This document shows, piece after piece, positions 4,408 to 57,407 of a stretch of 57,418 bases of DNA; positions within the stretch are counted from its first letter, which is position 1; each line of letters begins with the position of its first letter. Origin of the DNA: Barnesiella sp. WM24 (lineage in GTDB: Bacteria; Bacteroidota; Bacteroidia; Bacteroidales; Muribaculaceae). The position numbers and the translations under genes were made by a program. The notes beneath the pieces are model-generated. The model was given only the letters and a program-made list of their open reading frames with translations. It was not told the origin of the DNA and did not search any database. Location: assembly GCF_004570975.1 (NCBI RefSeq), contig NZ_SPPC01000017.1:1-57418 (forward strand), in the 5' to 3' direction.

Positions 4408-6363
4408 ATGAAAAAGATTTTTCTAAAATCCCTTACACTGGTAAACTTTAAGGGTGTGCGCGAGTTTCATGCCGATTTCTCCAATGCAGTAACGCTGGTA
4501 TCTGGCGAAAATGGCACGGGCAAAACCACGCTCTATGATGGTTATCTGTGGCTGCTATTCGGAAAGGATAGCGCAGGGCGTAGCGATTTCAACATTAAGA
4601 CGCTCGATGAGAACGGCAAGCCTATCTATCGTCTGGAACACTCGGTAACAGGTGTGTTTGTAATAGACGGCCGAGAGGTAAAACTGCAACGCTGCCTTGT
4701 TGAGAAATGGAACAAGGTTAACGGCTCCACCGAGGAAACGATGAAAGATGAAACCCAATTTTTCATCAATGATGTACGTTGCGGCACCAAAAAGGAATAT
4801 CAAGCCGAAATATCCGAGATTATACCCGAAGATGTGTTTAGGCTTATAACCAATCCCTATCTTTTCCCCCGTCTTTCAGCCGAGGACCAGAAAGATATGT
4901 TGCTTGAAATCGTAGGCAACATAGATGATAATGAGGTGGCCGCGCTCAACCCGGAATTTATGGCATTGCTCGACCATATCAACGGCACTTCTCTTGCAAA
5001 ATACGCTACCGAGGTAGCCGCCAAGAAAAAAGGGTGTAATGACGCGCTAACTACCATTCCGGCGGCAATCGAAACAGCCCAAAAGTTTTTGAACGACATA
5101 GAAGACTGGGCCGCGCTTGAAAGTGAGCTTACAACCAAGAAAGCGAGCCTCGCCAACATTGACGCTCAACTCGCCGATGTGAACAATGCGGCTATGGCTG
5201 CAAATCAGCGCAAGACCGAGATTGTGCGTATGTGCGGTGAAAAGCGAATTGCGTTAGGTAATCGTGAAAATGAAATCCGAGTGCAAGCCAGCTCTGACCG
5301 AAACAAGGCTATGGCAGATGTTCAAGCTATGGAGAGTGAGCTTGCGACCATACAGCGCAATATCGAATCCAAGCGTAACGAACTGACGGCATTAAAAGCC
5401 ACTATCGCCAAGACCGACACCGAGATTGTAGAACTCCGTGCGCAATTTAAGGCCGTGGCTCTTGAAACCTACAAAGAGCCGGCACATGACAATCTCGTAT
5501 GCCCTACTTGCGGAGAACCGCTTAGGGGCGAAAACCTCAAAAAGCAGCTTGAAACACTCCGTGGTAACTTTGAGCAGCACAAAGCCAAACGCCAAAAGGA
5601 AATCCAAGCCCGCGGCATACCTATGGGGCAAGCCTTAGAAGCCGCCAAAGCCAATGAAACACGCCTTACGGGGCAAATCTCGACCTTAGAGGATAGGGCG
5701 TTGGAACTCAAAGGTAAAATCGAATACGCCAAAGCTCATATTCCTGCCGCGCTCAACGCCGAGGAAATAATCAGCAAGGACGCACAATGTATTGCTCTTA
5801 CCAACGAAATCCAAGAGCTTAACAACCAACTCAACGCCGATGTAAAGCCGGCCGACACAAGCGAACTGCAAGAGGCAAAGGCTATGCTTGCCGATAGTAT
5901 CGCAGAACTCAATCAGCGACTGGGTAAGCGAGCCGCCGTTGACCGCGCCCAAAAGGAACTCGCCGAGTTAGAGGAAAAGCGCATAGCCAATAACCAAGCC
6001 ATTGCCGATTTGGAGCGTTGGGAGGACACCTATACCCGTTTCCTCAAAGCCAAAGATGAATTGCTCTATCAGCGTATCAACGGCCTTTTCAGCTATGTTT
6101 CTTTCTCTTTCATCAAAGAGCAAAAGAACGGTGGCGAGAAAATCACTTGTGTATGCACCGTGGACGGCACCCCCTATCCCGATGTTAACGCCGCCGGAAA
6201 GCTCAACGCAGGTCTTGACATCATCAACGCCCTATGTAAAGCCAAAGGCTACTCCGCGCCAATATTCATTGACAACCGCGAGAGCGTTAACGAGGCTATC
6301 CCCACAATCTCGCAGGTTATCAATCTCCGCGTGAGCTACGACAAAGCATTAACAATCCAATAA
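4408..6363 (+). CDS. SMC/Rad50-like ATPase (SbcC-type)
   Basis: A 651-residue protein. The N-terminal P-loop GENGTGKTT is at 33-41. Long coiled coils flank a CPTC zinc-hook motif (C365, C368), and the C-terminal half ends in an APIFIDNRESVNE Walker B-like segment around 618-628. This is the architecture of Rad50/SbcC/RecF-like ATPases that process DNA ends. No SbcD-type nuclease is next to it, but a RecT annealase gene follows within 10 bases and an MBL-fold protein after that. I infer a phage recombination or end-processing module. Confidence 0.88.
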   Translation: MKKIFLKSLTLVNFKGVREFHADFSNAVTLVSGENGTGKTTLYDGYLWLLFGKDSAGRSDFNIKTLDENGKPIYRLEHSVTGVFVIDGREVKLQRCLVEKWNKVNGSTEETMKDETQFFINDVRCGTKKEYQAEISEIIPEDVFRLITNPYLFPRLSAEDQKDMLLEIVGNIDDNEVAALNPEFMALLDHINGTSLAKYATEVAAKKKGCNDALTTIPAAIETAQKFLNDIEDWAALESELTTKKASLANIDAQLADVNNAAMAANQRKTEIVRMCGEKRIALGNRENEIRVQASSDRNKAMADVQAMESELATIQRNIESKRNELTALKATIAKTDTEIVELRAQFKAVALETYKEPAHDNLVCPTCGEPLRGENLKKQLETLRGNFEQHKAKRQKEIQARGIPMGQALEAAKANETRLTGQISTLEDRALELKGKIEYAKAHIPAALNAEEIISKDAQCIALTNEIQELNNQLNADVKPADTSELQEAKAMLADSIAELNQRLGKRAAVDRAQKELAELEEKRIANNQAIADLERWEDTYTRFLKAKDELLYQRINGLFSYVSFSFIKEQKNGGEKITCVCTVDGTPYPDVNAAGKLNAGLDIINALCKAKGYSAPIFIDNRESVNEAIPTISQVINLRVSYDKALTIQ

Positions 6364-6372
6364 GTTACTACA

Positions 6373-7350
6373 ATGACGCAACAGACACAAAGGACTGCAC
6401 CGGCCGTTGCTCCACAGCCGACAGCAACACAAGTCCAGAAAACGCCGGTCAATATGCTTAATGACTTACTCAACAATAGAGCAATGCGCAAGCAGTTTGA
6501 CAATGCCCTCGGAGCGGGCGCACCGACATTCATAGCAGGCATATTGGAGCTTTTCAGCAGCGATAGCAAGCTCCAGCTTTGTGACCCTACCCTCGTAGTA
6601 AAAGAGGCTCTCAAAGCGGCCGTATTGCGCTTGCCTATCAACAAATCGCTCGGACAGGCTTTTATTATAGCCTACAACAACACCGTGAAAGATGAACACG
6701 GAAACAAGCGCAAGCAGTATGAGCCTACTTTCCAGATAGGCTATAAAGGCTTGTATCAGCTTGCAATGCGCACCGGCCAATATCGTATCATCAACGCCGA
6801 TGTGGTGTATGAGGGCGAACTCCAAAAGAAATCAAAGCTCACCGGCGAAATCGACTTAGAGGGTGATAAAAAGAGCGATACCGTTATTGGCTACTTTGCC
6901 TATATCGAATTGCTCAACGGCTATCACAAGGCTCTCTACATGAGCGTAGAGGACGTTGCGAAACACGCAAAACGCTACTCAAAGGCTCTTATGTATTCCA
7001 AAGATGTTACCGTGGAATCCCTTATGGAGCTTGCAAAGCTCCCCGTGGTAGCAGATAGTGGCTCTCTGGGCTGGCTTGGCAACTTTCATGGCATGGCTAT
7101 TAAGACAGCACTAAGAAATCTACTTAGTAAATATGGCTACCTCTCGGTTGAACTCCAAAAGGCTTTGGCGAGTGATGACATCACCGATGATGCTAAATTG
7201 GCATTATCGGCCGCTCAATCCATGCCGGCTATTGCTTCCACGACCGCGCCGCAGGCTATTGACGTTACCACGGTGGATTATGAGGACGTAGGCATGACTC
7301 CAGCCGATGAGTCAGAATTACCCACGGACAATATTGAATGTGGCTTTTAA
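6373..7350 (+). CDS. recT: RecT-family single-strand annealing protein
   Basis: A 325-residue protein. Residues about 40-260 show the RecT pattern: PTFIAGILELF, CDPTLVVKEALKAAVLRLPINKSLGQAFIIAYNN, FQIGYKGLYQLAMRTGQYR, then VEDVAKHAKRYSKA. RecT proteins anneal single strands and promote strand exchange in phage replication and recombination. The N-terminus is a Q/P-rich tail and the C-terminus is acidic. It lies between the SMC-like ATPase and an MBL-fold protein that may be its nuclease partner. Confidence 0.93.
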   Translation: MTQQTQRTAPAVAPQPTATQVQKTPVNMLNDLLNNRAMRKQFDNALGAGAPTFIAGILELFSSDSKLQLCDPTLVVKEALKAAVLRLPINKSLGQAFIIAYNNTVKDEHGNKRKQYEPTFQIGYKGLYQLAMRTGQYRIINADVVYEGELQKKSKLTGEIDLEGDKKSDTVIGYFAYIELLNGYHKALYMSVEDVAKHAKRYSKALMYSKDVTVESLMELAKLPVVADSGSLGWLGNFHGMAIKTALRNLLSKYGYLSVELQKALASDDITDDAKLALSAAQSMPAIASTTAPQAIDVTTVDYEDVGMTPADESELPTDNIECGF

Positions 7351-7362
7351 TTCGCTCGACTA

Positions 7363-8091
7363 ATGAAATTGAAAGTATTAGGTAGCTCGTCCGCTGGAAA
7401 TTGCTATGTTCTTGACAATGGCAATGAGGCTTTGATACTTGAGGCTGGTGTGGCTTTTGCGAAAGTCAAAAAGGCTTTGGGCTTTAATCTCCGCAAGGTG
7501 GCGGGCTGCCTAATTACACATCAGCATAACGACCACGCCAAGTACATACGCAATGTGGTGGAGTGTGGTATAACAACACTGGCACTCCCGGAGGTATGGA
7601 CTGCAAAGCAAATCGAAAGTTCACGGGCCGTTGCTGTCCAGCCATACAAAGGCTACAAGCTGGGGCGTTTTAAGGTGCTACCTTTCCCTGCCTGCCACGA
7701 TGTGCCCTGTGTGGGTTATCACATTATCCACCCCGATTGCGGACGTATGTTATTCTTGACCGATAGCTGCGATTGTTTGCAAATATTCCCACAACTCAAT
7801 CATTTGCTTATAGAGTGCAACTATTCCACGTTCAACTTGCTTGAGGCGGTGAATAAGGGTTACACACTCAAAAGCCAGATTGAGCGACTACCAAACTCTC
7901 ACATGGAGCTTGACACTTGCAAGCGAGTTATCCGTGAACATGACCTTACCGATGTACAAGAGATTGTATTGCTCCACCTCTCTGCTCACAATAGCGACCG
8001 TGAGCATTTCATAAGCGAGATAGAGCGACATACGGGTAAGGTTGTGTATGCCGCAAGTCCGGGTTTAACCATTGACATTACTAAGTATTGA
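7363..8091 (+). CDS. MBL-fold metallo-hydrolase (likely nuclease)
   Basis: A 242-residue beta-lactamase-fold protein with the zinc motif HQHNDH (H53, H55, D57, H58) and further ligands in PACHD and LTDSCD. It resembles the YycJ/WalJ group of phage and bacterial MBL proteins, several of which are exonucleases. It is encoded directly after RecT, where phages usually place the exonuclease partner, so I infer a 5'-3' exonuclease or related DNA-processing role. Confidence 0.85.
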   Translation: MKLKVLGSSSAGNCYVLDNGNEALILEAGVAFAKVKKALGFNLRKVAGCLITHQHNDHAKYIRNVVECGITTLALPEVWTAKQIESSRAVAVQPYKGYKLGRFKVLPFPACHDVPCVGYHIIHPDCGRMLFLTDSCDCLQIFPQLNHLLIECNYSTFNLLEAVNKGYTLKSQIERLPNSHMELDTCKRVIREHDLTDVQEIVLLHLSAHNSDREHFISEIERHTGKVVYAASPGLTIDITKY

Positions 8092-8092
8092 C

Positions 8093-8524
8093 ATGGCAAA
8101 GGTGATGGTTGAAAAGATTAACGGGCTATTCAATCTCCGGCCCCTGTATGAGTGGTTTGCGCAGGTATGCGATGGGCTTTATCTCATTGAGGTAAAGAAA
8201 ATCCGCAAGCCGCGCACCAACGACCAAAACGGTTGGCTCTGGGGCTGTATTTACCCAATGCTCTTAGACGGGCTTTTAGAGGCTGGTTGGGAGTTTACAA
8301 CGGTGGAGCAAGTGCATGAGTTTTTCAAGGCTCTCATTGCGAAAGATAGCGTTGTAAACCGACACACGGGCGAAATCGTGGAATTTCCAAGCTCGACAGC
8401 CACAATGAATACCGTGCAATTCTCGACATATTGCGAAAAACTAAGAGAGTATGGGCGTGAATTTCTCGGAATCGAAATACCGGACCCGGATAAATATTGG
8501 CGCACGAATGATACAAGTAGCTGA
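8093..8524 (+). CDS. NinB-like recombination protein
   Basis: A 143-residue protein. The signature RTNDQNGWLWGCIYPMLLDGLLEAGWE, TTVEQVHEFFK, TGEIVEFPSSTATMNTVQFSTYCEKLREYG, then GIEIPDPD, matches the NinB/YbcN group (lambda Orf-like ssDNA-binding recombination mediators). The ATG at 8093 follows the MBL-fold stop by 1 base and is preferred over an in-frame upstream start inside that gene. It works with RecT in the same operon. Confidence 0.85.
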   Translation: MAKVMVEKINGLFNLRPLYEWFAQVCDGLYLIEVKKIRKPRTNDQNGWLWGCIYPMLLDGLLEAGWEFTTVEQVHEFFKALIAKDSVVNRHTGEIVEFPSSTATMNTVQFSTYCEKLREYGREFLGIEIPDPDKYWRTNDTSS

Positions 8525-8705
8525 CAACGTAATCTCGGAGTTGGTAAGACACATTCCGATGATATTAGACCTCTTGCCGCCTAACCCTACCAAGAGCCTA
8601 AGAGCGGCAAATGCAATACGAATGACAAAGATAAACCTCAATAAATTAAAACAATTAGACGATGAGAGAAAACAAAGAACTCAAAATCACAACCGCGAAT
8701 TATGA
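8508..8705 (+). CDS. Small basic protein, unknown
   Basis: 65 residues from the ATG at 8508 (MIQVADNVISELVRHIP). It is helical and basic toward the end (RMTKINLNKLKQLDDERKQR). It overlaps the NinB-like gene by 17 bases and the next gene by 44 bases, in different frames. A helical opening and a Lys/Arg-rich tail suggest a small nucleic-acid-associated protein. The family is not recognised, and overlap on both sides lowers certainty. Confidence 0.6.
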   Translation: MIQVADNVISELVRHIPMILDLLPPNPTKSLRAANAIRMTKINLNKLKQLDDERKQRTQNHNREL

Positions 8706-9306
8706 GGCTGCTTATGCAATGGCCGATGACAACACGCGCAAAATTCTCGCCACACTCGTGGGCGATAACGACACAACTGCAACGCCGGCTCGACCGGCAC
8801 CCAGTCTATCCGACTACACCACCATACGCTCCTATGAGGACGCTTGTGAGGCTCTTGGAATAGAGCCAATCCTTAACAAATCACTACTCGTGCGTGATGG
8901 AGAAGGTATAGCAGACCTATTCACTCTCCCCAAGCATATAGTCGCACAGATGAAGTTAGAAATTATTTGCAAAGCTCTTTGGGGTGGAGAGAACAAATGC
9001 CAGCCTACCGCTGACGGGAGCAAAGTATGGTGGTACCCGGTACTTGCACTCTGGACACCCTCAGAGATAGCAGGCATGGAAGATGAGCAGCGCAAAGCCC
9101 TCCTGTCTGCCGGTGCGCACTATGGCGCGACTGCGGGTTTCGGTTGTCTGTCTGCGTCTTATCGTAGCTCGTGGACGACTGCGTATGGGGCGTTCCGCTT
9201 GTGCCTTGACACCGAGGAAAAGGCAGAATACTTTGGCAAGCAATTCGTGGAGCTGTGGGCTGAAGCCTATGCCTACAATTTCACGGTAGGCGGTCATCTT
9301 GAATAA
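8662..9306 (+). CDS. Early-region protein with a DGR variable repeat (C-type-lectin-like)
   Basis: A 214-residue protein with no signal peptide. The N-terminal part is helical (SYEDACEALGIEPILNK, LPKHIVAQMKLEIICKAL), followed by KVWWYPVLALW. Residues 146-180 are the DGR variable repeat: ALLSA, GFG, YRSSW, GAFRL, as in C-type-lectin folds of DGR target proteins. After it comes a tail (TEEKAEYFGKQFVELWAEAY), so unlike the tail target the repeat is internal. It lies in the recombination operon between NinB-like and coiled-coil genes, hence probably cytoplasmic and early. Similar proteins occur in Bacteroidales phages by recollection, without known function. Start: the 8662 ATG. Confidence 0.88.
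   Translation: MRENKELKITTANYEAAYAMADDNTRKILATLVGDNDTTATPARPAPSLSDYTTIRSYEDACEALGIEPILNKSLLVRDGEGIADLFTLPKHIVAQMKLEIICKALWGGENKCQPTADGSKVWWYPVLALWTPSEIAGMEDEQRKALLSAGAHYGATAGFGCLSASYRSSWTTAYGAFRLCLDTEEKAEYFGKQFVELWAEAYAYNFTVGGHLE
9097..9200 (+). other. DGR variable repeat 2 (remote VR)
   Basis: 104 bp aligned without gaps to the template repeat 53128-53231. Of 21 template adenines, 13 differ here (to G, C or T). Every non-adenine position is identical. Substitutions fall in AAY codons and one TAT, leaving GGC, GCG, TTC, TGG and CGT codons intact. This pattern is the hallmark of adenine-directed mutagenic retrohoming. The 3' boundary shares TTGTGCC with the other VR, where the TR has TTTTACC. 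Confidence 0.95.
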
Positions 9307-10567: not shown

Positions 10568-11455
10568 ATGGCAAACAAGCGGATTAAATCCCTAATGCCT
10601 ATTGACACGGGGGAATGGTTAGACAGCCCCCGTGTCAATACTCTCTCTTACGATGTAAGGGGGATATGGCTTACATTGCTTTGCTATATGTGGGAAAGCC
10701 CCACACGGGGAATTATGGCGCACTCTAACGGAAAGCCCTATACAAAGGGGCAAATCCTACGAGAATTGCAAATAGATTCTATCTCGCTTGAAATTCTCAT
10801 TGAGAGCGGATTGTTGGCAATAGACAATCACGGAGTTTACCACTCTCCCGAAATGGTGCGCAAGGAGCGCATAAGTAGTGTAAGGCGCAATGCTGGTCGC
10901 AAAGGTGGAGAGATAACCAAAGGCAAGGTGTTTGCGGTTATACAAGAAATTACCCCCAATCAGCAAGCCTCCGTGGTTGTAGAGCCACCCCCCGAAAGCA
11001 AGCAAGCCACACCAATACCTCAATTATTCAATAATGAGGAAATTCCCGAAATGCCCCCAGAGCTTACGCCCGAACAAAAGGCGAAAGCCGAGAAAAAGAG
11101 AAAATATAAATACGCTGAAAATGTAAGCCTTACAAGAGATGAATACGCCAAGTTGTGTGAGGAACACACCGAGCCAGTAGTAAAGCGTATGATAGAAATT
11201 CTTGACAACTACAAAGGGCAGAATGGCAAGCGATACAGAAGTGATTATAGAGCTATCCTTAATTGGGTAGTAAACAGATATAACGATGAGCAACTAAGAT
11301 ATGGCACTCGACCCCCAACAATTACGACTACCGCAAAACCAGCAGGCGGCATTGGAGCTTTTGCGCCAAATGCAACAAGAGCGGTACAAATTACAACAGG
11401 AACAAGCCCGCAATCTGGTGATGCGCCGGCGAAAGACTATTCTGAAAGGTTTTAA
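10568..11455 (+). CDS. Replication initiation / primosome-like protein
   Basis: A 295-residue protein. The N-terminal winged-helix-like region (SLMPIDTGEWLDSPRVNTLSYDVRGIWLTLLCYMWES) resembles phage replisome organisers. After a P/E-rich linker (about 135-185), the C-terminal half has TRDEYAKLCEE, IEILDNYKG and KRYRSDYRAILNWVVNRY, a motif common in phage DnaD/replication proteins. Directly downstream, overlapping by 155 bases, is a DnaC-like helicase loader, supporting a role in origin recognition and helicase loading. Confidence 0.82.
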   Translation: MANKRIKSLMPIDTGEWLDSPRVNTLSYDVRGIWLTLLCYMWESPTRGIMAHSNGKPYTKGQILRELQIDSISLEILIESGLLAIDNHGVYHSPEMVRKERISSVRRNAGRKGGEITKGKVFAVIQEITPNQQASVVVEPPPESKQATPIPQLFNNEEIPEMPPELTPEQKAKAEKKRKYKYAENVSLTRDEYAKLCEEHTEPVVKRMIEILDNYKGQNGKRYRSDYRAILNWVVNRYNDEQLRYGTRPPTITTTAKPAGGIGAFAPNATRAVQITTGTSPQSGDAPAKDYSERF

Positions 11456-12122
11456 GTATGACCTTACCGACCATGAGGAATACAACGTACACGCCGCTAT
11501 GGTGCTTGAAATGGGTAACAACTATATGCTACGCGAGTTTTCGCAATTCGTAGTAGATGAGCATAATAAGAACGTGTTGCGTTTCTTGCTCTACTACTTC
11601 AACAATTGCCCCCTCGCTGAAACGGTGTTTCCAAATGAGGATTACAAGATTCACAAGAACATACTCTTAATCGGTGAGCCGGGTACGGGTAAGACTATGC
11701 TTATGCAAATTTTCGCTGACTATCTCCAAGCGACTCAGAACGACAACCAGTTTCGCAATATCAGTATGACCCAGCTAATGAACTATCAAAAGGTATTCGG
11801 GCATATTGACAAGTACACCTACAACGAACTTAAAGGAGCGAGCCGCCAAGAGGCTTATGACGGTGTGGACCCGTATAACATTTGTCTTAATGACTTGGGT
11901 ATTGCGACCGAGCAGCAAAAGAGTTTTGGTACGCTTTTAACCCAAGTTACCGATGAATTTCTCTTTGCCCGCTATGAGATATATCAGCAGTATGGTAAAC
12001 GCTATCATATCACAAGCAATCTGACCGTCAAGGAGCTAAAAAAACGCTTTGAGGGGCGTTTGCAAGACCGCTTCAAAGCATTCAACGTGATAGAGCTACA
12101 CGGAGGTAGCCGCCGGCGTTAA
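11301..12122 (+). CDS. DnaC-like helicase loader ATPase
   Basis: A 273-residue AAA+ protein. Walker A GEPGTGKT is at 125-132, an NDLGIAT Walker B-like stretch follows (about 198-204), and there is an arginine-rich end (FEGRLQDRFKAFN) as in DnaC/IstB loaders. It would load the host replicative helicase at the phage origin. The first ATG (11301) gives a 155-base out-of-frame overlap with the upstream replication gene. Internal starts near 11421 would remove most of it, but the N-terminal Q-rich helix looks coding. Confidence 0.85.
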   Translation: MALDPQQLRLPQNQQAALELLRQMQQERYKLQQEQARNLVMRRRKTILKGFKYDLTDHEEYNVHAAMVLEMGNNYMLREFSQFVVDEHNKNVLRFLLYYFNNCPLAETVFPNEDYKIHKNILLIGEPGTGKTMLMQIFADYLQATQNDNQFRNISMTQLMNYQKVFGHIDKYTYNELKGASRQEAYDGVDPYNICLNDLGIATEQQKSFGTLLTQVTDEFLFARYEIYQQYGKRYHITSNLTVKELKKRFEGRLQDRFKAFNVIELHGGSRRR

Positions 12123-12168: not shown

Positions 12169-13220
12169 ATGAAGCATAAATTTAACTACAACTGGACTCT
12201 CAAAGACGCTCATTTCAGCAAAGATAAGGGTGTGGTGTTTTCGTGCTTTGCTTGTGGGGGGGGTCAACAATGGGCTATAAATTAGCTGGTTACGATGTAA
12301 TAGGTTGTAATGAAATTGACCCTCGCGTTATGAGCTTATACGAAACAAATCACCACCCACGCTATCCGTTTCTGGAACCGATACAGACATTCCGAGAGAG
12401 GACTGCATACCCGGACGCACTCTATAATCTTGACATTCTGGACGGGTCCCCGCCATGCTCCGCTTTCTCAATGGCAGGCAGCCGAGAGGAGGCATGGGGC
12501 GTTGAGAAAAAGTTTCGTGAGGGTCAAGCAACCCAAGTGCTTGATACGCTCTTTTTCGATTTCATAGAGGTTGCGCGAAAGCTCCAGCCCAAAGTTGTAA
12601 TCGCTGAGAACGTGAAAGGACTCTTACAAGGAGACGCGAAAAAGTATGTGCAACGTATCTATGCCGAGTTTGACGCAGCGGGCTATTATTGCCAACACTG
12701 GCTACTGGACGGTCAGGATATGGGCGTACCACAAAGGCGTGAGCGTGTCTTTTTCGTGTGCCTTAGAAAAGACCTCATAGACCATGTGCCAGTGCGATAC
12801 AATCTTTTTGACGTGGTACCGCACCTTAATCTCGCTTTCAACGAGCCACGCATAACGTGTGAGGACGCAGAACTTGAATTGGGCGATGAGATAACCACCA
12901 AATGCTATGTTGAGGACTACGGCCGCTTACAGCGTGGAGAGGAAAAGAAATATCAGCAATGTGCATTAGTGCAAAAAACAGACGTACACCCAACGCTCTT
13001 AGCAAGCTATCGTGATAAGGCAAGCCCTATGCCGGCATGGGAGCGCAAATGGCTCTCCAAATCAGACATTTGCAAAGTATCATCTTTCCCTCAAGACTAC
13101 GATTTCGGCTCACAAAAGCCACACTATATATGCGGAATGAGTGTACCGCCAATAATGATTGCTCAAATCGCTACACAAGTTTATGAACAATGGCTATCAA
13201 AAATTAACCAAGTGAAATGA
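12169..13220 (+). CDS. C5-cytosine DNA methyltransferase, frame broken at poly-G
   Basis: A Dcm-type methyltransferase. After the break the frame carries NEIDP, the catalytic motif GSPPCSAFSMAG, AENVKGLL and QRRERVFFVCL, and extends to LSKSDICKVSSFPQDY. The N-terminal part, including motif I (FSCFACGGG), is read from the ATG at 12169 in another frame. The frames meet at eight G (12256-12263). Nine G would give one continuous product of about 350 residues joining CGGG to STMGYKLAG. As it stands the first frame ends shortly after the G tract, and the second has only a GTG at 12243 or an ATG at 12270. Either a sequencing error, a phase-variable tract or a real lesion. Confidence 0.85.
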
Positions 13221-51638: not shown

Positions 51639-53012
51639 ATGGGCTTAATCTTAGGCAGCGGCTCCACTAAGCCGCAATACCCCTACGATATGTGGTATGG
51701 TGTGCAAGGCGATTTTACCAGCAAGGACTATAAGCTCACTCGCATTGGTAATATGGACTTGCACCGCACACTACCTATCCAGAAAAAGCTGAGGCGTTTC
51801 GTGGAAAACACGGACGGCTCCGTTAAATACTATCTCCACCAGAACGATTCCCGTAAAAAGGATTCTGGTGCAACTGCAAAGCTCGACACCACGGATGGAA
51901 ACGTGATGTTGGAAAAGCCCGAATACTTTTGCCGCTTTGAAGTTGAGGGTACAAGGTGGGCTATGTGCATTTCAGAATATGCTTTGCCCGGATTTGTGCG
52001 CATGAGTCGTAAAACACTATCGCCGTGGTGTGCCACAATCAACATTGCTAACTCTATTGCTGTTTCCGGCTGCTGGCTCCAGTGGGGCGCAGACGATGAG
52101 CTTTTGCGTGATGCGAATGGCTTCATTTCCTTACTCCCCAACGCGGCTAATTTCCGCGGTGGTAGTGGAGCCTCGGACGCAAACAAAGACGGCACATTCT
52201 GCTCCCAGCTCGGTATGCCCCGCACCTCTATTTCTAAGGCCGGCGCACGTCCATTCTGTAAGAATGGTACACACTTAGGTGTAGCTCGTGCCTATATGGA
52301 AATAGCATGGCTCCAGCGTATCGAATATGCCTCGCTCCATTGCCAAGAGGCATACAACGAAACGCTCACGGCCGATGGTTTTCATCAAGGCGGCTTAGGA
52401 AGCGGTCCTGCGGTGGACGGCGGTCAGTGGAATACATGGGGGGGCTATCGCCCGTTTGTGCCTTGTGGAGTTACTGCACCGCTCGGTAACAACACCGGCC
52501 GCATATCCTATACTATCAAGGGCTGGACCGGCGGCGATAAGGTGGTACAGTGCCTCTCTTATCGCGGGCTTGAATTGCCCTATGAATATCTATGGCTACT
52601 TGCTGATGACTTGCTCGTTCACTGTTCACCCGAAACTGCCGATGACCCCGGACATTGCACTGCTTACGGTTGCACAGACCCTGCGAAATTCGCCTCACCA
52701 AGCGATACGGCAACCTCTATTCCAGATGGATATGTTCCTATCACAGAGTTACCTACTACTGAGGGCTATATTTGGAATTTTGGTTTTTCGTATGATGGAT
52801 TTACACTGCCTACAAGCGTAGGGGGTGCTTCAAATCAAGGAATGTGCGATTATTTTTGGCGTGTAGCAAAAGCAACCGCAAATGGTTGGTACGGTGCCCT
52901 CCTGTCTGCCGTTGCGGACGCTGGCGCGGTTGCGGGTTTCGGTTATCTGCTTGCGTATTATCGTAGCTCGTGGACGAAGGCGGATGGGGCGTTCCGCTTG
53001 TGCCGTTTTTAA
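51639..53012 (+). CDS. DGR target: variable tail tip/adhesin protein
   Basis: A 457-residue protein. N-terminal part: DMWYGVQGDFTSKDYKLTRIGNMDLHRTLPIQKKLRRFV; middle: beta-rich segments (WCATINIANSIAVSGCWLQWG). The C-terminal C-type-lectin-like domain (about 370-457) ends in the variable repeat, residues 420-454 (GALLSAVADAG, GFGYLL, YRSSWT, GAFRL), with only CRF after it. In phage DGRs such proteins sit at the tail tip and bind host receptors. The template repeat and reverse transcriptase follow directly. Confidence 0.9.
   Translation: MGLILGSGSTKPQYPYDMWYGVQGDFTSKDYKLTRIGNMDLHRTLPIQKKLRRFVENTDGSVKYYLHQNDSRKKDSGATAKLDTTDGNVMLEKPEYFCRFEVEGTRWAMCISEYALPGFVRMSRKTLSPWCATINIANSIAVSGCWLQWGADDELLRDANGFISLLPNAANFRGGSGASDANKDGTFCSQLGMPRTSISKAGARPFCKNGTHLGVARAYMEIAWLQRIEYASLHCQEAYNETLTADGFHQGGLGSGPAVDGGQWNTWGGYRPFVPCGVTAPLGNNTGRISYTIKGWTGGDKVVQCLSYRGLELPYEYLWLLADDLLVHCSPETADDPGHCTAYGCTDPAKFASPSDTATSIPDGYVPITELPTTEGYIWNFGFSYDGFTLPTSVGGASNQGMCDYFWRVAKATANGWYGALLSAVADAGAVAGFGYLLAYYRSSWTKADGAFRLCRF
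52896..52999 (+). other. DGR variable repeat 1 (VR, near the RT)
   Basis: 104 bp, gap-free alignment to the template 53128-53231. 12 of 21 template adenines differ. One non-adenine change exists: T to G in the codon giving Lys (AAG for AAT). Homology extends 3 more bases upstream (GGT). Downstream, TTGTGCC replaces the TR's TTTTACC (IMH versus IMH*), then a CCGTT-TTT-AACGG hairpin follows, a typical element after DGR variable repeats. Confidence 0.95.
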
Positions 53013-53108
53013 CGGACTGCAAACCAACGGTACACGGAGCAACGAAAATATTATCAATTAAACACATAAGACAATGGAATAAAACGAATTAACGCAAAAC
53101 GAAATACG

Positions 53109-53289
53109 GGTGTCGGCGGTCAGGGGTGCCCTCCTGTCTGCCAATGCGAACAATGGCGCGAATGCGGGTTTCGGTTATCTGAATGCGAATAATCGTAGCT
53201 CGTGGACGAATGCGAATGGGGCGTTCCGCTTTTACCGTGGTTTCGACTTTCTTGAATAAGATATTTCCAGACTGTTGACCGCCGACACC
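53109..53289 (+). ncRNA. DGR template RNA region, bounded by 14-bp inverted repeat
   Basis: The template repeat itself is 53128-53231 and holds nine AAY codons. Arms GGTGTCGGCGGTCA (53109-53122) and its exact complement (53276-53289) enclose it, with a possible G-U pair at each end. RNA from this region would close into a long stem with the TR in the loop. No gene is seen in 53013-53324 apart from this; an ORF-like frame through the TR has a stop at its third codon (53080-53082). The transcript ends are inferred. Confidence 0.82.
53128..53231 (+). other. DGR template repeat (TR)
   Basis: 104 bp with high AAY-codon content; its non-adenine bases match both variable repeats except for one T-to-G difference in VR1. 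It lies between the variable protein and the reverse transcriptase, the common DGR order. The end GGGGCGTTCCGCTT is shared by all three copies. Confidence 0.95.
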
Positions 53290-57328: not shown

Positions 57329-57339
57329 TTAAGCACAAA

Positions 57340-57360
57340 TTCTACAATAGTTCTACAAGA
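57340..57360. repeat. End repeat, right copy (possible integrase arm site)
   Basis: Identical to 256-276, containing TTCTACAA twice. It lies 47 bases inside the right att core. Confidence 0.6.
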
Positions 57361-57407
57361 TGCCAATTTAACCTCGTATCTGGTTGATAGTCAAAGTTGA
57401 GTTAGGA

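Follow-up and report, generated by a model that had tools for sequence, protein, structure and literature searches.

A remote second target of a phage diversity-generating retroelement in an early recombination operon and its unannotated family in Bacteroidota phages

A gene lying between recombination and replication genes in a Bacteroidota genome carries a close copy of the template of a diversity-generating retroelement (DGR), and the reverse transcriptase (RT) of that retroelement sits beside a tail gene far away. Is this copy a second target of the retroelement that is still being rewritten, and what might a diversified protein encoded in such a place recognize? The window, i.e., the whole stretch of DNA analysed here, comprises 57,418 nt of Barnesiella sp. 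WM24 (GCF_004570975.1, NZ_SPPC01000017.1, positions 1 to 57,418, forward strand). An integrase (283-1560) and a 25-bp near-repeat found beside it (252-276) and near the right end (about 57337-57361) suggest that the window is a prophage. The near-repeat is a candidate attachment core and is itself internally repetitive. The remote target gene P0001 (8662..9306, 214 aa, phrog_11581 at E 1.4e-53) lies on the plus strand, as do the genes around it. The same gene run contains an SbcC-like gene (4408..6363, phrog_77 at E 4.1e-79), a RecT-like annealing protein (6373..7350, phrog_148 at E 8.3e-62), a metallo-beta-lactamase (MBL)-fold hydrolase (7363..8091, phrog_392 at E 2.9e-68, PF00753 at E 1.9e-6) and a NinB/Orf-like recombination mediator (8072..8524, phrog_72 at E 1.6e-19). 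Downstream of P0001 lie a replisome organizer (10568..11455, phrog_13246 at E 2.6e-59), a DnaC-like helicase loader (11301..12122, phrog_50 at E 2.7e-11) and, as the fifth gene, a C-5 cytosine DNA methylase (12243..13220, PF00145 at E 4.7e-43). The hydrolase shows a weak, sub-threshold match to the anti-Pycsar protein Apyc1 (E 0.0083) and is often found a short way upstream of the target.

The remote variable repeat (VR2, 9097..9200, plus strand) aligns without gaps to the template repeat common to both targets (TR, 53128..53231, plus strand), with 91 of 104 positions identical. All 13 mismatches fall on the 21 template adenines and none on the 83 other sites, for which the chance is 1.7e-11 if 13 mismatches are placed at random. 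This bears out the match described in an earlier sequence-only reading of this DNA, as does the distance from VR2 to the template of 43,928 bp (43.9 kb linear), or about 13 kb across the joined ends if the prophage is circular. The local variable repeat (VR1, 52896..52999, plus strand) likewise matches the template at 91/104 positions, differing at 12 of 21 adenines and at one other site. Besides VR1 and VR2, nothing on either strand of the window matches the template at 60 or more of 104 positions. Both variable repeats run into GTGCC (9201..9205, plus strand, after VR2) and the template runs into TTACC; the 3' end of VR2 is thus of the recipient type, which we take to be what is called IMH in BPP-1, with the template version called IMH*. 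VR2 as a second template is excluded by this recipient-type end. Each variable repeat begins at a codon boundary of its own gene. VR2 is in frame within P0001 and is followed by 34 codons, which agrees with the earlier description of an internal repeat here as opposed to a terminal one in the tail target. A small hairpin, CCGTT-TTT-AACGG (53003..53015, plus strand; sequence and fold), with a 5-bp stem directly follows VR1, and a hairpin also follows the VR in the DGR of BPP-1. VR2 lacks that hairpin and is followed by a different 6-bp stem, as seen in the window.

The local target gene P0002 (51639..53012, plus strand) encodes a tail protein of 457 residues (phrog_5302 at E 3.3e-105) that ends with VR1 and adjoins the RT. 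The DGR-type RT P0003 (53325..54548, plus strand; PF00078 at E 1.4e-17, phrog_1423 at E 1.3e-109) has the motifs GNYTSQ and YMDD as read from its sequence, and the former fits the GxxxSQ motif given for DGR-type RTs in the consulted part of PMC12386605. The accessory protein Avd was sought among four small open reading frames flanking the cassette, none of which has a Pfam match at E 0.01. The host genome contains two further RT matches, both within DGRs. In one of these DGRs (L136, G000:C11), the local target is of the tail family, with 16/16 mismatches at adenines. The other DGR again has a remote family member, at G000:C2:48209-48625, with 9/9 mismatches at adenines and the RT at G000:C2:63819-64589.

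Phages with the same gene order were sought in an isolate record (Bacteroides phage Versailles), bacterial genomes and viral contigs. Both template and VR2 are available for six phages, with the duplicate G409 counted once. Measured against its own template, VR2 is changed at 13/21 adenines in the window, 14/21 in G222, 12/23 in G405, 14/22 in Versailles, 12/21 in G090 and 14/23 in G407/G409, which sums to 79 of 131 adenines and 0 of 493 other sites. A seventh phage, G406, has 14/23 adenines and 2/81 other sites changed, so that the seven distinct phages together show changes at 93 of 154 adenines and 2 of 574 non-adenine sites, both of the latter in G406. The six templates show as many as 17 non-adenine differences from one another, and VR2 tracks its own template at every non-adenine template difference (19 of 19 differing pairs, of 21 pairs listed). 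Since VR2 follows its own diverged template at all such sites, it is not a copy made once. VR1 shows 0 to 2 non-adenine changes against its own template across the compared phages. In Versailles, 14/22 adenines are changed in the remote and 11/22 in the local repeat, with no non-adenine change. Two contigs of one metagenome, which we infer to be one phage, carry a template identical to that of the window and a VR2 with 16 adenine changes and no others. For G398-G404 and G408, VR2 is available without a template. At the first codon, usually AAT, the template of G090 (L060) has GG in place of both adenines and has itself lost these mutable positions. The 115-kb viral contig of G406 (L065 and L075) contains a pair of distinct DGRs that have a template and a local VR each.

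Close pairs of phages show where recent changes have accumulated. The window and G222 differ at 38 positions over 3,642 bp. VR2 accounts for 15 of these, every one at a template adenine, and the P0001 gene is identical between the two outside VR2. Between the window and G397 there are 41 differences (12 in VR2, 12 at template adenines), and between G222 and G397 there are 21 (14 in VR2, 14 at adenines). A fourth pair, G402 and G403, has 19 differences, 16 of them in VR2; 15 of the 16 are at adenines of the template of G090, which was used in place of their own. The sequence-only reading had proposed comparing VR2 between related phages, and the VR2s of the window, G222 and G397 differ on nearly identical backgrounds rather than being one shared sequence. 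A different pattern is seen in G399 (L131, G399:1-6000), where the RT is mostly deleted and a template remnant remains. Measured against the template of the window, non-adenine changes number 17 in VR1 and 2 in VR2 of G399, as drift without retrohoming would give. By comparison of sequences, one template thus appears to serve two recipients that are both continually rewritten, and we consider it nearly certain that VR2 is a real target still being rewritten in this lineage.

The protein family of P0001 is a recurrent DGR target elsewhere. Matches occur in 25 of 397 genomes sampled from the family of the host, and distant members share 24-34% identity (alignment A2). Of 27 places with distant members, 17 have a cognate template next to an RT of the same genome, and 222 of 233 mismatches summed over the 17 are at template adenines. 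Among the 17, G037 and G130 have the same target sequence, G197 has its template next door, and in G252 and G012 the template is on another contig. No cognate template was found at the other 10 places, five of them in genomes without an RT match at E 1e-8. A broader search retrieved 79 loci from Bacteroidota and a few genomes labelled otherwise, from which 26 genomes without a local RT were chosen, one being a duplicate of G222. A cognate template beside an RT was found in 19 of the 25 non-duplicate genomes, with 264 of 281 mismatches at template adenines. Three of the 25 have no RT match at E 1e-8, and three of the 22 compared gave no template. Identity between the RTs associated with these family targets and that of the window falls to about 27-30% over the matched part. 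LoVEphage has a remote target that belongs to phrog_11581, as P0001 does (tblastn, about 35% over 92%), with 19/19 mismatches to its template at adenines. Pairwise comparison of six LoVEphage-type records gives 15 pairs, of which one is identical, and the OY731433 template has an adenine wherever the VRs of a pair disagree; two of the records have 20 differences, all in the VR at template adenines, and 0/472 outside. The crAss-like phage cr56_1 (NC_055890; L265, L267) encodes a 135-residue member about 55 kb from the copy beside its RT, with 15/15 mismatches at adenines, and no template match was found for cr60_1. The crAss-like DGR papers, as far as their consulted sections go, speak of tail targets. 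Phrog_11581 is an unannotated family spread through Bacteroidota phages. In four distant members (L033, L040, L041, L042), the helical N-terminus reads like it has been replaced by a putative small SH3-like barrel, and the variable part of the family may be carried by different adaptors.

Cassettes and family members are arranged in either of two ways. The window shows the first, with a cassette in the tail module and a small target at a distance. In the second, the cassette is local: a template-like copy lies within the fetched stretch at 15 of the 79 loci by hand count, and 10 of the 15 also have an RT (L225, L234, L236, L237, L240, L245, L247, L248, L253 and L256). Such local cassettes often have two or more small family members in a row before the template-like copy. 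At L249, an RT is present but just 7/13 mismatches are at adenines. The cassette of L253 neighbours a transposase-like protein (a sub-threshold match) and a phage transposition protein, those of L247 and L240 neighbour DnaG-type primases, and that of L237 a family A DNA polymerase. With such neighbours, these four cassettes appear to be placed in early regions, which speaks for the small protein as an independent target rather than an accident of a tail cassette.

The position next to genome-processing genes also recurs. Within nine genes of the target at 35 loci, an SbcC-like protein was found at 21, a RecT-like protein at 18, an MBL-fold hydrolase at 21, a replisome organizer at 26 and a DnaC-like loader at 23, with gene names taken from the members in the window and with several of the loci being close relatives, hence not independent. 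At L111, the target lies between a phrog_3657 protein, by our own reading RecT-like, and a RecE-like exonuclease; L117 has the same two clusters around the target plus one small open reading frame between. The target of LoVEphage neighbours a DUF2400/TIGR02757 gene, methyltransferases and a tRNA ligase. The recombination-replication operon is absent around the target at other loci, such as L109, L113, L119, L123 and L124.

The protein itself gives few clues. P0001 has no Pfam or NCBIfam match up to E 0.1 and no convincing sequence match in the PDB, and lambda Gam/Red-type nuclease inhibitors are among the proteins that it does not match in these searches. P0001 recalls such inhibitors in its recombination-operon position only. 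Hydropathy alone reveals no hydrophobic segment suggestive of a signal peptide or membrane anchor, consistent with the earlier statement that a signal peptide is missing. Two structure models reach mean pLDDT values of 65.6 and 73.0, and in both the greater part of the VR scores below 50; a fold comparison against the PDB gave no useful match. Residues 135-183 match the tail family phrog_5302. At the profile level, the similarity between P0001 and the tail target is confined to the surroundings of the VR (41 columns), and the parts before the VR do not match. The orthologue of P0001 in Versailles is annotated as "tail protein", a label made unsafe by the low confidence of the VR in both models and by a tail similarity ending at the VR edges. 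In six divergent gene pairs, pN/pS outside VR2 is 0.24-0.32, which indicates purifying selection on the constant part of P0001. The three closest pairs have too few changes outside the VR for such an estimate (none in one pair; one synonymous and two nonsynonymous, i.e., 0.57, in each of the other two). The sequence-only reading thus holds for a second, remote, non-tail target in an early recombination operon with a signature of continued rewriting; the C-type-lectin fold and the particular ligands that it proposed (defence proteins or nucleoprotein complexes) are conjectural.

A remote target outside the tail is less unusual than that reading implied, as precedents date from 2021 (PMC8008677) and 2025 (PMC12629997). 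Benler 2021 described for Quimbyvirus a second, non-structural hypervariable DGR target near defence-related genes, assigned it a C-type-lectin domain and, in the part of the article consulted, counted it among unprecedented features (PMC8008677). As in the window, a single phage DGR of Quimbyvirus has two VRs, and the second is remote from the structural genes; its surroundings are described as including a MutY-like nuclease, methyltransferases and a tRNA ligase (PMC8008677). In contrast, the target in the window lies in a run from SbcC, RecT and NinB to the replisome organizer, and the RT is one frame. The RT of LoVEphage matches in two separate pieces, and its identity to that of the window is about 30%. 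The two-piece match and the neighbourhood of its target make LoVEphage probably the same kind of phage as Quimbyvirus, and judging from the neighbourhood the remote target of Quimbyvirus is probably a relative. The 2025 study reported second distal VRs in four gut prophage species near counter-defence genes and suggested an arms-race role (PMC12629997). These prophages are likened to the window by description only, and the sections consulted define no protein family (PMC12629997). The Bacuni phages of Bacteroides uniformis (2021) also have two VRs, one remote from the RT, but both targets are described as fimbrial-tip-like adhesion proteins with the VR at the 3' end in the excerpted text (PMC8143477). 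Tentaclin two-target DGRs (2023) share with the window one template for two different targets; according to the consulted text, both of their targets have C-type-lectin domains in one cassette, and tentaclins are receptor-binding proteins (PMC10743442). Bacteroides phage Versailles (ON453897) has the gene order of the window with remote and local VRs. The available text of the Versailles paper mentions polymorphism hotspots in the prophage of the host without stating their places, and the term DGR has no occurrence in its main text (PMC10197239). The authors of a 2021 DGR survey note, in the passages seen, that their own approach would miss remote targets (PMC8144416). Our literature search found no paper uniting such remote targets into one family. 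A single remote non-structural target is therefore a further case of a known kind; what is new is how widely the family is targeted, its repeated occurrence in this operon position and the existence of local cassettes directed at phrog_11581.

We suggest, with moderate confidence, that the observations as a whole are best explained by one DGR acting on two genes in trans, with P0001 as a cytoplasmic early binder of a varying partner. The RT beside the tail gene would make cDNA from the TR RNA, erring at adenines, and this cDNA would replace VR1 in the tail protein and, in trans, VR2 in P0001 44 kb off. Integration would occur where there is enough matching sequence and the right 3' end. The dependence on the RT and the cDNA step are presumed by analogy with known DGRs. 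From its location and the lack of a secretion-like segment, P0001 is most likely produced early, together with the recombination and replication proteins, and stays in the cytoplasm. Its variable segment of roughly 35 residues would be re-drawn to fit a binding partner that varies between hosts or competing phages. That this partner is to be found foremost among host defence or nuclease complexes, or else among proteins of rival phages, is close to an even call. We put defence and nuclease complexes first, since operons of this kind are where phages keep inhibitors of host nucleases.

Several other explanations share parts of this evidence. Diversity in P0001 could instead track competing phages and not host defences if the protein acted on recombination or replication complexes of its own phage or of a competitor, for instance as an exclusion factor. 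The many loci with the gene between recombination genes and the replisome organizer, and the arrangement at L111 and L117, fit this; a partner from the same phage, though, would need no constant re-diversification, and we regard the explanation as unlikely while giving it more weight than the remaining ones. P0001 might also be made early and then be virion-associated or injected, with its variable segment used in adsorption or entry like that of the tail target. The annotation of the Versailles orthologue and the match of residues 135-183 to phrog_5302 speak for such a role, which becomes distinctly improbable given that the tail similarity surrounds only the VR and leaves the preceding parts unmatched, that the gene accompanies recombination and replication genes in many divergent phages and that no secretion-like segment is present.

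Two further explanations deny any benefit of the diversity or its continued generation. VR2 might be a bystander, rewritten by virtue of a suitable sequence and 3' end, as a single template for both targets means that a homologous site gets rewritten regardless of its use. Targeting of the family by many divergent RTs, some local cassettes aimed at such proteins in regions that seem to be early, and purifying selection on the constant parts make this very unlikely. A frozen copy from a single recombination event is scarcely conceivable. Phages with an intact RT offer nothing in its favour except the two non-adenine changes of G406, and only G399, without most of its RT, looks like one. For this lineage, a frozen copy is refuted by the 0 changes at 493 non-adenine sites in six phages despite diverged templates, and differences between near-twin VR2s are almost only at template adenines.

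A cytoplasmic early protein with a changing partner, as we favour for P0001, could extend to its relatives. Across many phages whose RTs are divergent, remote targets come from one unannotated family, frequently encoded beside genome-processing genes. We tentatively propose, at somewhat less than even confidence, that phrog_11581 comprises dedicated intracellular DGR-diversified recognition proteins of Bacteroidota phages. These might be made early with the recombination machinery, be re-drawn lineage after lineage and bind fast-changing factors of host defence or rival phages, in which case one retroelement would tune both entry and the intracellular fight. Versailles, which shares the layout of the window and is inducible, is available in a defined laboratory community. 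The rewriting of P0001 relatives in many phages hints at a fast-changing contest inside the cell, and makes it a testable question what inside a bacterial cell changes fast enough to need a phage mutator.
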